A DNA stretch of 64,000 nucleotides from Parvicella tangerina (lineage in GTDB: Bacteria > Bacteroidota > Bacteroidia > Flavobacteriales_D > Parvicellaceae): contig NZ_OU015584.1 of assembly GCF_907165195.1 (NCBI RefSeq), forward strand, positions 1,178,001 through 1,242,000, given 5' to 3'. The notes beneath the pieces were generated by a model that saw only the letters and a list, made by a program, of their open reading frames with translations, had not been told where the DNA came from and ran no database searches. The number at the start of each line of letters is the position of its first letter. Within the stretch, counting starts at the first letter, position 1. Below are positions 15,582 through 20,806 of the stretch, piece by piece. The position numbers and the translations under genes are program-made.

Positions 15582-16103
15582 ATGAGCTTCCCAAAATTAG
15601 TTGTAACAGATATTGATGGAGTTTGGACAGATGGTGGTATGTATTATGACCAGACAGGTAATGAATGGAAAAAATTCAACACTTCTGATAGTGCTGGTGT
15701 CCTGTTCTTAAGATATCTGGAAGTGCCTTTTGCTATAATAACCTCTGAAGATACTGAGATCATGAAAAACAGAGCACAAAAACTTAAGGTAGATCTGTTG
15801 TTTGAAGGCGTGAGCGACAAAGTTTCTGTGTTGAATGATCTTTGCGACAAGCTTGGAATATCGTTGAATGAGGTTGCCTACATTGGAGATGATCTAAACG
15901 ATATGCCAGTTTTAAAGTTGGTTGGTTATTCGGGATGTCCAAAAAATGCGCCTGACTATGTTAAGTCCATTTGTGATTTTATTGGAGAAAAGAATGGTGG
16001 GGAAGGAGCTTTTAGAGAGTTTGTTGAACACATGTTGAGTAAGAATCAATTGTTGGACAAGGTTCTGGATAAACATATGGATCGTGTAACAAGAAAGTCA
16101 TGA
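15582..16103 (+). CDS. KdsC-like HAD phosphatase
   Basis: The 173-residue protein has the HAD nucleophile loop [13 protein letters not shown] (D10 and D12), the motif II ITSEDTE, a conserved lysine in GVSDKVSVL, and motif [13 protein letters not shown]. It lacks a large cap domain, as in the KdsC / sialate-9-phosphate phosphatase group. Between NeuB (6-base gap) and the adenylating enzyme (4-base ATGA overlap), it most likely dephosphorylates a nonulosonate-9-phosphate. This implies that NeuB may act on a 6-phosphate sugar, as in some bacterial and eukaryote-like pathways. Confidence 0.82.
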
Positions 16104-17569
16104 TTGAAGGGTTTCTGAAAGCTACTAAAAATTCGCCTTCTTCTGTTGCGATAATTGATACGAATGGGGAACGGTATTCGTATCAAGAGTTATATACTCA
16201 AGCGCAAAGAATAGCGCAGTGTATAAATGAAGACTCCCATTGCGTTGGAATTTATACAGACAATAACTTCTTTACTTATGCGGCAGTTCTTGGGGTGCTT
16301 TTAAAAAACAAAACATTTGTACCTCTCAACAATAAATTTCCGGATGAACGACTGGGTAACATTATTCAGCAAAGTAATGTCTGGCAAGTGATAGCTTGTG
16401 AGGAGTCGAAAGAAAAGGTTCAAGAAATTGCTGATGTAGATCTAGTTGTTGCAGATGAAACCTCTGAAGAAATAGAAATAAATTTTGACTGGGGTTACAC
16501 TCCATCAGATATAGCATATATACTCTTTACATCAGGCAGCACTGGAGTGCCAAAGGGAATACCAATATCCTACAAGAATTTTACCTCTTTTATTGGATCA
16601 TTAACCAAGAAATTTGAGCTCAATGAGGAAAACAAGGTGCTGCAAGCTTTTGAATTATCATTTGATGTTTCTATTGGGTTGACCTTTATGGCGCTTAATT
16701 CAGGGGCTCAACTGGTTCTTGCTCCACTTGATGGAATTATTGCGGTGAGCGCATATAAGGCAATCATAGATTTCAAGATTGATTTTGTCACGTTGCCTCC
16801 ATCAGCTGTTAATTATCAGGAGAAGTATAAGTTGATACCTCAGCTTGAAATTCCTTTTGTTCGAACTACTTTGTTCACAGGTGAGGCGTTGCCTTATGAA
16901 GTCGTTCGAAAATGGAAATCGGTAGCCAGATATACAGATGTTTATAATGCGTATGGGCCAACTGAAGTGACAGTATGGAGCTATTTTTATAAACTAAATG
17001 ATAGCTCAGATATCGAATTAGTAAACGGACTTTGTCCTATTGGACAGCCTTTGACTGGGGTTGATGTTATGATACAGCCAATGGATGGTGAAAAAGAGAA
17101 TAAGGGAGAACTTCTTTTAGGAGGGGATCATGTTTTTGAGAAGTATCATCATGATCCAGATAAAACTAAAAATGCTTTTTACATTGATGAAGAGAGAAAG
17201 AAGTGGTATAGGACAGGAGACGCTGTCTTGCTAAATGACCTAGGAAATGTTGTTTATATCAATCGGTTGGATAATCAGGTCAAAGTAAATGGATATCGAA
17301 TTGAATTAGGTGAGATTGAACATGCGCTTCGCAAGATCCTTAAAGTAGATACAGCTGTGGTATTAGTTGGAGAAGATGAAAAAGGAAATAAGCAACTAGA
17401 AGCTTTTCTGGATGTCGATGTCGATACAAAAAAAATGCAGGAGGAGCTTTCAAATTCCCTGACATTTTATATGATTCCTAAGGTTTATCACAATATTGTT
17501 ACGTTTCCAGTAAATACAAACGGAAAGATTGATAGAAAAGAACTTCAAAAACGAATCAATGAAAGTTAA
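16100..17569 (+). CDS. DltA-like amino-acid adenylating enzyme (carrier-protein ligase)
   Basis: This complete 489-residue ANL-superfamily enzyme shows the P-loop [12 protein letters not shown] (142-153), YGPTE (285-289), RTGD (371-374), the hinge region [21 protein letters not shown] and the catalytic lysine of NGKIDRK (K476). The A4 region has SFDVS with D189, the aspartate that binds the substrate alpha-amino group in DltA and NRPS A-domains, so an amino acid substrate is likely. At the DltA FCGE motif, whose Cys is linked to D-Ala selection, this protein has FTGE (Thr260). It would activate the amino acid with ATP and load the carrier protein at 18182. Confidence 0.85.
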
Positions 17570-18185
17570 GGTAAGAAGGGCGTCCAGAGAAGATTGTGAT
17601 TTTATAGCTAAGCTTATTTTTTTTGCGGAAAGCACCGGTGCAGAAATCACAAGCTATGAGAAAATGTTTGAAAGTTCTGCTGAAGAGCTGGTGCCAGCTT
17701 TTGCAAAAATGCTAGACAACCCGTCTAAAGGACATCCCCTGACATATAAAAGTTATATGATTGGAGAAGTGAATGGGGAGTGCGCAGGAGGCTTGTCAGC
17801 ATACGTGGAAGGTGAGTTTGGAGGTTCAAATCACATGATGACGGGAGCTTTGATGAATGCTTTTGATCGCAAAGATGTGCAGAAAGCATTTAAGTTTCTT
17901 GCTGAGAATAAGGACGTGCAGATCGAGAAGAGAAAAGGTAATTTGCAGTTGGATTGTGTAGGGACTTTGAGCAAGTTCGCTGGAATGGGAGTCTTTTCGT
18001 CTCTACTCAGTTTTGTGGAGAATGATTTCAAAGCAAAAGGTGGAGGAACAGTGGAGATTCAGGTATGGAAGAAAAATGAACATGCGATTCGTGTTTATGC
18101 AAAGAAAGGTTATCGTATTTTTGACGAAAAGATAGGTGTTAATGATCCTTCAAATGGGAAGGTGTTAATGGAAAAAGAATTATGA
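17559..18185 (+). CDS. GNAT-family acetyltransferase
   Basis: The ATG at 17559 gives 208 residues beginning [14 protein letters not shown], the usual GNAT N-terminal strand; a TTG ten codons earlier lies deep in the ligase gene. The acyl-CoA loop region is SKFAGMGVFSSLLSF (about 138-152), and the C-terminal NEHAIRVYAKKGYRIF is the conserved GNAT motif B. It overlaps the ligase gene by 11 bases and the carrier-protein gene by 4, so it is embedded inside the Dlt-like cassette. It might N-acetylate the activated amino acid or an amino sugar; neither can be proven here. Confidence 0.78.
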   Translation: MKVKVRRASREDCDFIAKLIFFAESTGAEITSYEKMFESSAEELVPAFAKMLDNPSKGHPLTYKSYMIGEVNGECAGGLSAYVEGEFGGSNHMMTGALMNAFDRKDVQKAFKFLAENKDVQIEKRKGNLQLDCVGTLSKFAGMGVFSSLLSFVENDFKAKGGGTVEIQVWKKNEHAIRVYAKKGYRIFDEKIGVNDPSNGKVLMEKEL

Positions 18186-19867: not shown

Positions 19868-19870
19868 GCT

Positions 19871-20806
19871 ATGAATTCGATTAAGGGAATTATCTTATTT
19901 GTATTGTTTAGTTTAGGTTTCTATTTAGCCTTAATGTTCGGACTTTCTAAAGTAGAATACAAGGGAGCATCGATGATTATACAGACCAATGACTTTTATT
20001 TTAAAAAAGGCGGAGATACCTACGAAAAGTTCAAGAGTTTTAAAAGGAATGAGCTACATGATATTGTATTTGTAGGCTCCTCTCGATGCTACAGGCATTA
20101 CAATCCAGACTATTTTGGGAAAGGAAAGTTGAACAATTGGAATTTGGGTACAAGTGCTCAGATTATGAGAAATTCAAAACTTGTGATAGAAGGTTATCTG
20201 ACCAAAGAAAATTGTAAATTGATCGTCTTAGATCTTTTTCCTGCAGCTTTCAACACACCCGGACTTGAATCGTCAGCTGACCTTATAACAAATGCGAGTA
20301 AGAACAATGTCGCATTTCAGGTAGCATGGGGAATGAAGGATTCGCGGGCATTGAATTTAATGGTTAACCGGTACTTAACCTTGAGCAACCCACCATCTTT
20401 TCAAAATGAAGACTATGTAGGGAAAGGTTTTTGTGCTCATTATGATACCATTAAGAAAAATGCCAGCTTTCAGACAGATAAGATGATTCAGGAGTTAGAA
20501 ATTAATGAGGAACAGTTGAAAGTATTACTTGATATAATAAAATATTGTAAGCAAGAAGAGGTCAAATTGGCCTTGGTGATTTCTCCATCATCAAATTATT
20601 TTCATGAGCAAACCTATCTCGAATTCTTAGATGTGATTTTGCCTATAGTTGAAGCGTATGATATTCCTTTTTTTGATTATGCGAAGAACCATTCGCTAAA
20701 GACTACGGAGCACTTCTATGATGATTCCCATATGAACATTGAAGGAGTTAAAATTTTTAATGAGCGCTTTTATCAGGATTTAAAAAAGGCTAACTTAGTC
20801 GAATAG
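19871..20806 (+). CDS. DltD/AlgX-like SGNH protein, copy 1
   Basis: The 311-residue protein has one N-terminal membrane anchor (about residues 5-24) and an extracytoplasmic SGNH-type domain. The nucleophile-type motif is FVGSSRCYR (Ser70/71) and the C-terminal dyad is D284-x-x-H287 in FYDDSHMN. DltD and AlgX/AlgJ proteins complete acyl transfer from the MBOAT partner to the polymer in the periplasm. Three bases separate it from the MBOAT gene and one base from the DUF4910 gene. I infer transfer of the aminoacyl group to a sugar hydroxyl. Confidence 0.75.
   Translation: MNSIKGIILFVLFSLGFYLALMFGLSKVEYKGASMIIQTNDFYFKKGGDTYEKFKSFKRNELHDIVFVGSSRCYRHYNPDYFGKGKLNNWNLGTSAQIMRNSKLVIEGYLTKENCKLIVLDLFPAAFNTPGLESSADLITNASKNNVAFQVAWGMKDSRALNLMVNRYLTLSNPPSFQNEDYVGKGFCAHYDTIKKNASFQTDKMIQELEINEEQLKVLLDIIKYCKQEEVKLALVISPSSNYFHEQTYLEFLDVILPIVEAYDIPFFDYAKNHSLKTTEHFYDDSHMNIEGVKIFNERFYQDLKKANLVE

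Follow-up and report, generated by a model that had tools for sequence, protein, structure and literature searches.

A probable carrier-fed acylation cassette headed by an amino-acid-type ligase in a putative glycan locus of Parvicella tangerina

Five genes of a proposed acylation cassette

We analyzed a 64,000-nucleotide stretch of the Parvicella tangerina genome (RefSeq assembly GCF_907165195.1, contig NZ_OU015584.1, positions 1,178,001 to 1,242,000 of the forward strand; hereafter, the window), in which a first-pass annotation had described a Dlt-like aminoacylation system. The open reading frame (ORF) listing contains 5 tightly packed plus-strand genes at 16100–20806, in the order and at the coordinates previously annotated: a free-standing amino-acid-type adenylating ligase (ANL) of 489 aa (16100–17569), a GNAT-fold acyltransferase of 208 aa (17559–18185, starting with ATG; the listed ORF starts with TTG at 17529), an acyl carrier protein (ACP) of 81 aa (18182–18427), a PatA/AlgI-type membrane O-acyltransferase of 478 aa, here called MBOAT1 (18431–19867), and an SGNH-type protein of 311 aa (19871–20806). 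From the phosphatase gene preceding the set to the DUF4910 gene following it, the successive intergenic gaps measure −4, −11, −4, 3, 3, and 1 bp. Pfam gathering cut-offs were reached for AMP-binding, GNAT, PP-binding, and MBOAT, and none was reached by the SGNH-type protein. Alignments and motif searches confirmed the residues singled out earlier, namely, Asp189 of the ligase, the phosphopantetheine-bearing Ser39 of the carrier (codon 18296–18298), and His283 and His325 of MBOAT1.

The 5 genes probably constitute one acylation cassette, and they are a separable block between flanking genes. Upstream lies a core encoding a KdsB-like cytidylyltransferase, NeuB, and a KDN-9-phosphate phosphatase of the HAD type (13769–16103, plus strand), and downstream a DUF4910/DUF2172 protein (20808–22088, plus strand). 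In a related locus on a 6.3 kb contig (L213, genome G305), the cytidylyltransferase, NeuB, HAD, and DUF4910 genes follow one another with nothing between the last two, and the NeuB, HAD, and DUF4910 proteins are 67%, 60%, and 57% identical to those of the window, respectively. Because this locus joins directly the 2 genes between which the window has exactly 5, we consider the cassette a unit. The system first described is thus real and of broader scope: probably a cassette for carrier-fed acylation that begins with an amino-acid-type ligase.

The carrier shows no match to the DltC model and gave E-values of 0.013 and 0.003 against 2 DltC proteins; its nearest solved relative is annotated as a “putative acyl carrier protein” (PDB 2LML; E-value of 3.1e-11). 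With a model built from 31 other MBOAT-linked carriers, it scores 78.1 bits. Twelve further carriers reached 6.0 to 55.0 bits with the same model, except for L099_5725 (98.8 bits), which belongs to an MBOAT line, and L065_10654 (79.2 bits); the 2 DltC proteins score 8.1 and 6.0 bits. These scores lend mild support to an MBOAT-linked character of the window carrier. The SGNH-type protein, the presumed final transferase, has a hydrophobic N-terminal stretch, as judged by eye, and carries the superfamily motifs of block I (GxS; GSSR at residue 69) and of the C-terminus (DxxH; DDSH at 284), although no Pfam SGNH/GDSL model was reached. The label “DltD-like” given to this protein was too strong: there was no DltD model match, the BLAST E-values against 2 DltD proteins were 7.5 and 0.37, and we rejected the assignment, since the similarity is confined to SGNH-type motifs.

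The MBOAT segment after the catalytic histidine and the upstream carrier gene

Both histidine motifs of MBOAT1, previously presented as those of DltB, are indeed there, but they are also found in the PatA/AlgI-type MBOATs compared, and we therefore rejected them as evidence for Dlt. MBOAT1 is 43% identical to the second MBOAT of the window (MBOAT2), 30% and 28% identical to DltB proteins, and below the cut-off of the DltB model (TIGR04091; 180.8 vs. 375 bits). According to PMC12148441, the FXYXXF motif is the acyl shuttle; Dlt systems carry it on DltX, whereas in systems of the PatA type it is part of the MBOAT. Such a motif ends MBOAT1 (FIYFQF; 19847–19864, plus strand), and because it lies on the MBOAT itself, we assign the protein to the PatA/AlgI type.

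A further feature of MBOAT1 is a short segment after His283, in which PLVFKHKKWG (codons 297–306; 19319–19348, plus strand) replaces the motif PLGG(N/S)(R/K). In the alignment, this altered segment falls on helix HC of DltB. According to PMC11035591, helix HC of Streptococcus thermophilus DltB binds DltC through Met302, Val305, Ile306, and Met309, together with Lys312 and Arg317, and PMC9338922 names residues of Lactobacillus plantarum DltB with the same spacing. Carrier-linked MBOATs have 2 extra, often hydrophobic residues in the segment (PLVFKHKKW in MBOAT1), whereas the others read PL--GGNR. The alignment points to the segment as a candidate carrier-docking site of MBOAT1.

To relate the segment to gene neighborhood, we compared the region from the catalytic histidine to the WHG motif in 67 MBOATs, defined as ORFs of at least 430 aa reading W..W[HN]xS and then W[HN]G, with copies removed; the sample is weighted to the phylum of the window and, via an alignment of motif-less MBOATs (A3), to ACP-type MBOATs. 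Counting as “with motif” sequences that have PLGG(N/S)(R/K) or come close to it, a criterion derived in the present analysis rather than published, the MBOATs fall into 32 motif-less proteins whose gene directly follows an ACP gene, 32 motif-bearing proteins without ACP, 3 proteins lacking both features, and none combining them (Fisher p = 6e-16, a value that ignores relatedness). A fairer test is offered by 28 of the 67, which come from loci retrieved by MBOAT sequence only, with alignment A3 as the query (ACP upstream of 23/23 motif-less and 0/5 motif-bearing proteins). The gene set is accordingly more than a chance assembly, as the order of ACP before MBOAT recurs in 32 of the 67, only with the altered segment. 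Two proteins stand outside the 67, L106_7513 (off the pattern; PLGG, no ACP) and MBOAT2 of the window (motif, no ACP). The genome of the window encodes 5 MBOATs, and the 4 besides MBOAT1 all retain the motif and have no ACP gene in the flanks of their loci. Among plasmid MBOATs, for which 11 of 136 matching records were read, 10 have the motif and one, from Tistrella, does not; no ACP gene was found in these 11 stretches. If the proposed reading is right, this comparison places a carrier-fed PatA/AlgI-type MBOAT in at least 27 of the 395 genomes searched.

On starred branches of the MBOAT tree, there are at least 4 changes of ACP state, even when the segment is masked, and these may be gains or losses; in the masked tree, 4 independent pairs on these branches gave, on average, 3.0 in agreement, 0 in disagreement, and 1.1 without a difference. 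The MBOAT trees leave out 14 near-duplicate ACP rows, and the masked tree also leaves out the 2 DltB rows, which lie on long branches.

Ligase, GNAT, and the surrounding glycan genes

The ligase obtained its top profile score with the amino-acid-adenylation model (287.8 bits, slightly below the cut-off of 317.4) and remained clearly under both DltA cut-offs (256 vs. 560 bits and 260.5 vs. 476 bits), so that calling it DltA-like overstated the relationship. Asp189 occupies the alignment column of the Asp that binds the amino group in adenylation domains, and the ligase motif SFDVS resembles SFDLS of DltA. In a tree of 42 rows, several of them on long branches, the window ligase belongs to a 13-row clade (support 100/98; 12 different proteins) separate from the 2 DltA rows and grouping next to DltA and nonribosomal peptide synthetase (NRPS) domains. 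The predicted pocket code, located with motif anchors and the numbering of GrsA, is DVGTLTAVWK, vs. DLMILCTVAK in Enterococcus DltA; we refrained from a firm guess at the amino acid from the likeness of this code to aromatic codes. Thr260 aligns with Cys269 of E. casseliflavus DltA, which we take to be Cys268 of PMC8972799, the residue that, according to that study, selects D-alanine. Cys occupies this position in 10 of the 11 other members of the clade, 9 of them reading LFCGE as in DltA, so the window ligase departs from its own clade at this position. With Thr260 in place of Cys, we rejected D-alanine as the substrate. Searches of viral contigs with the ligase returned no relatives, and no recognizable glycan genes were seen around H1 and H3, 2 of the plasmid ligases listed. 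A Dlt-type operon annotated on a plasmid of the Gram-negative Enterobacter encodes DltD, an MBOAT, a ligase, and a carrier; its DltA-like ligase has Ile at the D-alanine-selecting Cys position, and the window ligase and MBOAT1 are no closer to this operon than to Gram-positive DltA and DltB.

Genes in front of the carrier differ among the loci with ACP-type MBOATs. Of 23 new loci of this kind, 20 (all except L140, L142, and L143) were read, and the gene directly before the ACP encodes an AMP-binding enzyme in 18, FkbH in 1 (L167), and neither in 1 (L149). The 18 AMP-ligase–ACP–MBOAT operons (L150–L166 and L168) belong to families f18, f36, and f47 of the phylum and mostly have GDSL/SGNH-like neighbors, the “SGNH” label in relatives other than L157 resting on place, size, and inspection by eye. 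The only one of the 18 ligases to be profiled, that of L157, is of the fatty-acyl type (311 to 316 bits with fatty-acyl models vs. 109.6 with the amino-acid-adenylation model), reads YHDMG where the window ligase has SFDVS, and is accompanied by 2 GDSL-type genes, the smaller scoring over the Pfam cut-off and the larger just under it (30.8 vs. 32.9). Another locus has the order FkbH–ACP–MBOAT–SGNH-like (L098; FkbH profiled). A further one contains 2 ACP genes, FkbH, MaoC-like and SDR genes, and 3 MBOATs, each followed by an SGNH-like gene (L099, contig G277:C2), and resembles a small acyl-building line feeding MBOATs. The earlier description of the combination as uncommon holds in part: AMP-ligase–ACP–MBOAT operons were found in 18 of the 20 regions, and the Enterobacter plasmid carries an annotated Dlt operon, but among the regions examined, an amino-acid-type ligase, GNAT, ACP, MBOAT, and SGNH gene in one operon were seen in the window only. 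Among the papers listed in searches of the open-license literature, excluding preprints and judged by titles and abstract openings, none described a carrier-fed PatA/AlgI-type MBOAT, FkbH or fatty-acyl-AMP ligases (FAAL) with MBOATs, the GNAT, or AMP-ligase–ACP–MBOAT operons, which is weak evidence of novelty.

The structural model of the GNAT (predicted local distance difference test [pLDDT] score of 83.1) has the GNAT fold, and its best Foldseek matches are general acetyltransferases (1u6m, 4m85, 4e2a, and PaiA), which we dropped as a guide to the substrate. The protein is rare: among 395 genomes of the phylum, 20 contain matches with E ≤ 0.001, and matches with E < 1e-9 occur only in the window genome, G263, and G349; the search of its own family (39 genomes) returned the window copy alone, and that of plasmids returned no match. 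A contig scan with a single peptide pattern from 6 other members, which would miss members as diverged as that of the window, yielded 9 loci, all in metagenome-assembled genomes titled Ignavibacteria, Ignavibacteriaceae, Chlorobiaceae, Bacteroidetes, or Chitinophagales. Out of 17 copies counted (16 in L107–L115 plus that of the window), 8, from 7 genomes including that of the window, directly follow a ligase gene, although the ligase of L115 is truncated where the stretch ends and that of L112 is only a 178-aa piece; in L108, L109, and L115, a GNAT copy is convergent to an ACP–MBOAT pair. In the coenzyme A (CoA) loop, where 13 of the 15 relatives in alignment A4 have RGxG or RRxG, the window protein has AGMG; we did not rely on this change as proof of a carrier-bound donor. 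In L062, L111, L112, and L115, ligase–GNAT pairs lie near SDR genes and LuxE/LuxC-, FabH-, or FkbH-like genes (profiled in L115, labeled by eye in the other 3), and these regions are possible acyl-assembly islands with several carriers.

The phosphatase gene preceding the cassette (15582–16103) exceeds the NCBI cut-off for KDN-9-phosphate phosphatase (245.8 vs. 180 bits), and since its neighbors encode a KdsB-like cytidylyltransferase and NeuB, a KDN-like nonulosonate is more probable than a diamino sugar. This core is the presumed source of the cytidine monophosphate (CMP)-nonulosonate. Genes for an ABC-2 permease and an ABC ATPase are located 2 to 4 kb upstream of the window, and the window itself contains one Wzy_C-family gene and 3 sulfotransferase-family genes (6046–6798, 12957–13778, and 28026–28889), which, along with the CMP-nonulosonate core, give the region the appearance of a glycan export locus. 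Sulfation of the glycan, also proposed at first, is likely judging from the 3 neighboring sulfotransferase-family genes, and nothing further supports it. One of these genes adjoins a second MBOAT–SGNH pair (28899–31189, plus strand), which has PLGGNR and no adjoining ligase or carrier gene; the pair, probably performing ordinary O-acetylation, serves as an internal control. In 4 other KDN-type loci (L212, L214, L215, and L216), no carrier gene was found within the 14 to 20 kb read, and in L212, an MBOAT gene followed by an SGNH-type gene lies 4.5 kb away.

A proposed route, its alternatives, and known systems

We propose that the cassette mediates carrier-fed export of an ATP-activated amino acid and its attachment as an ester to a KDN-type glycan, a reading that, taken as a whole, we consider fairly probable. 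The ligase would activate the amino acid with ATP and load it onto the phosphopantetheine of carrier Ser39. The GNAT may then acylate the amine of the loaded amino acid, most simply by acetylation, a step that we advance tentatively and with some doubt. Docking of the loaded carrier onto MBOAT1 would involve the altered segment that follows His283, by analogy with DltC and DltB. MBOAT1 would then hand the acyl group over to the other side of the membrane, where Tyr475 in the FIYFQF shuttle at its own C-terminus would receive it. Finally, the SGNH-type protein would take the acyl group on its Ser and transfer it as an ester to the exported glycan. We favor carrier feeding because the carrier gene lies 3 bp before MBOAT1, the motif and ACP are correlated, the other MBOATs of the same genome have the motif, the segment aligns with helix HC, the ACP state has changed repeatedly, and an AMP-binding enzyme or FkbH precedes the ACP in 19 of 20 loci; the existence of a KDN-type locus lacking the cassette and the top score of the ligase with the amino-acid-adenylation model point in the same direction.

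Several observations weigh against this proposal. Three of the 35 motif-less MBOATs have no ACP gene directly upstream, namely, L080, in a region with the order MBOAT, SGNH-like, AMP-ligase, MBOAT, SGNH-like; L082; and L099_3171, preceded by ACP, MaoC-like, and SDR genes (the last 2 labeled by eye). The Tistrella plasmid MBOAT is likewise motif-less with no ACP found. Independent switches are too few for a sign test to reach 0.05. The carrier L065_10654, which follows a ligase with no adjoining MBOAT seen, equals that of the window in its score with the MBOAT-linked carrier model. The structural model of MBOAT1 is of only middling confidence (pLDDT of 70.5), and the GNAT has no counterpart in Dlt. 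Asp189 is not unique to amino-acid ligases, since its column also holds an Asp in L157, whose ligase is of the fatty-acyl type, and it proves little alone; having discarded it as proof of an amino-acid substrate, we base the amino-acid type on the tree, the SFDVS motif, and the score over the entire profile. Finally, ligase and carrier genes occur without an adjoining MBOAT in L066 (G107:C70, 8564–11603), a KDN-type locus (HAD 60% identical) in which the set before DUF4910 comprises a ligase, a carrier, a GNAT, and an AAC(3)-like gene and no MBOAT, and in L067 (G368:C22, 165–3350), where a set of the same composition, its AAC(3)-like gene labeled by eye, lies approximately 11 kb from the KDN-type NeuB/HAD pair of L216 on the same contig. 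Hence, a transferase of another kind can be served by the ligase and carrier of such loci, and these sets are a candidate aminoacylation route for an amine.

The last point opens an alternative in which the cassette comprises 2 unrelated systems, with the ligase, carrier, and GNAT attaching an aminoacyl group to a cytoplasmic sugar amine (N-acylation) and MBOAT1 and the SGNH-type protein performing ordinary O-acetylation fed by acetyl-CoA. It would account for the ligase–carrier–GNAT–AAC(3)-like sets in or near KDN-type loci and for the frequent placement of this GNAT family after ligases without an adjacent MBOAT, and a GNAT devoid of the usual CoA-loop Arg would suit a carrier-bound donor. 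We nevertheless deem it unlikely: MBOAT1 lacks the PLGG motif that carrier-less MBOATs keep, as the other 4 MBOATs of the genome illustrate for the unlinked type, and the single carrier gene lies just before MBOAT1, in a pairing that recurs in 32 of the 67 MBOATs compared. Even less probable is D-alanylation of the glycan by a genuine, though diverged, Dlt system. The same 4 activities are encoded in one operon with a free-standing amino-acid-type ligase, and by E-value the MBOAT1 model best matches DltB (template modeling [TM] scores of 0.60 to 0.63, with 0.60 to 0.62 for HHAT), but the ligase and MBOAT1 fall below the DltA and DltB cut-offs, the ligase stands outside the DltA pair in the tree, the SGNH-type protein has no detectable similarity to DltD, and no ORF of 25 to 90 aa with FXYXXF in its last 25 residues, as expected for DltX, was found at 13000–24000. 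Thr260 in place of Cys also speaks against it, but this position is occupied by Ile in the DltA-like ligase of Enterobacter. The least probable of the alternatives retains the carrier-fed route with an acid that is not an alpha-amino acid, such as a hydroxy or fatty acid. Other ACP–MBOAT operons do carry FkbH or an AMP-binding enzyme, FAAL-like in L157 and with an Asp in the Asp189 column; set against this are the 287.8 bits of the window ligase with the amino-acid-adenylation model (109.6 for that of L157), its SFDVS motif, like SFDLS of DltA and unlike YHDMG, and its position next to DltA and NRPS domains.

More broadly, carrier-fed export by the cassette may exemplify a modular class, of which Dlt would be one independent example: PatA/AlgI-type MBOATs might have been repeatedly rewired from acetyl-CoA to dedicated carriers by exchange of one short cytoplasmic segment, allowing Gram-negative bacteria to export any acid that can be loaded, including fatty acids (FAAL-like ligases), FkbH products, and, here, an amino acid N-acylated by the GNAT. 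We regard the case for this generalization as evenly balanced. If the reading presented here holds, carrier-fed PatA/AlgI-type MBOATs are not rare and occur on several branches of the MBOAT tree, one short segment tells them from acyl-CoA-fed ones, so that donor choice in a large enzyme superfamily can be tested by segment swaps, and surface glycans bearing amino-acid or other unusual esters are predicted. Base-labile groups are easily lost during glycan analysis.

Comparison with known systems supports the view that the cassette works like Dlt but is not a member of it. As in the Dlt system (DltX-A-B-C-D, D-alanylation of teichoic acids), a ligase with SFD(L/V)S, a carrier, an MBOAT, and an SGNH protein (by motifs only) are encoded in one operon; the altered MBOAT1 segment aligns with the region through which DltB docks its carrier. 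By contrast, the ligase and MBOAT1 score below the Dlt cut-offs, the carrier and SGNH-type protein match no Dlt family, the acyl shuttle is built into MBOAT1 instead of residing on DltX, Thr replaces the D-alanine-selecting Cys, and the cassette has an extra GNAT and lies in a CMP-nonulosonate glycan locus. What stands of the Dlt-like system first annotated is a carrier-fed ligase–ACP–MBOAT–SGNH route, probably leading to an exported glycan, with a ligase of the amino-acid type by score; membership in Dlt and D-alanine as the substrate are not supported, in view of Thr260, the failure to find DltX, and the PatA/AlgI build of the MBOAT. With the acetyl-CoA-fed PatA/PatB and AlgI/AlgX pairs, the cassette shares the build of the MBOAT, the catalytic His, the C-terminal FXYXXF, and the adjoining SGNH partner, whereas it lacks PLGG(N/S)(R/K) and adds a ligase and, 3 bp upstream of MBOAT1, the carrier. 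Operons of families f18, f36, and f47 share the ligase–ACP–MBOAT order, the absence of the motif, and, where profiled (L157), SGNH/GDSL-type neighbors; they differ in the fatty-acyl-type ligase and 2 GDSL genes (L157), the lack of an intervening GNAT, and their position in a separate part of the MBOAT tree.

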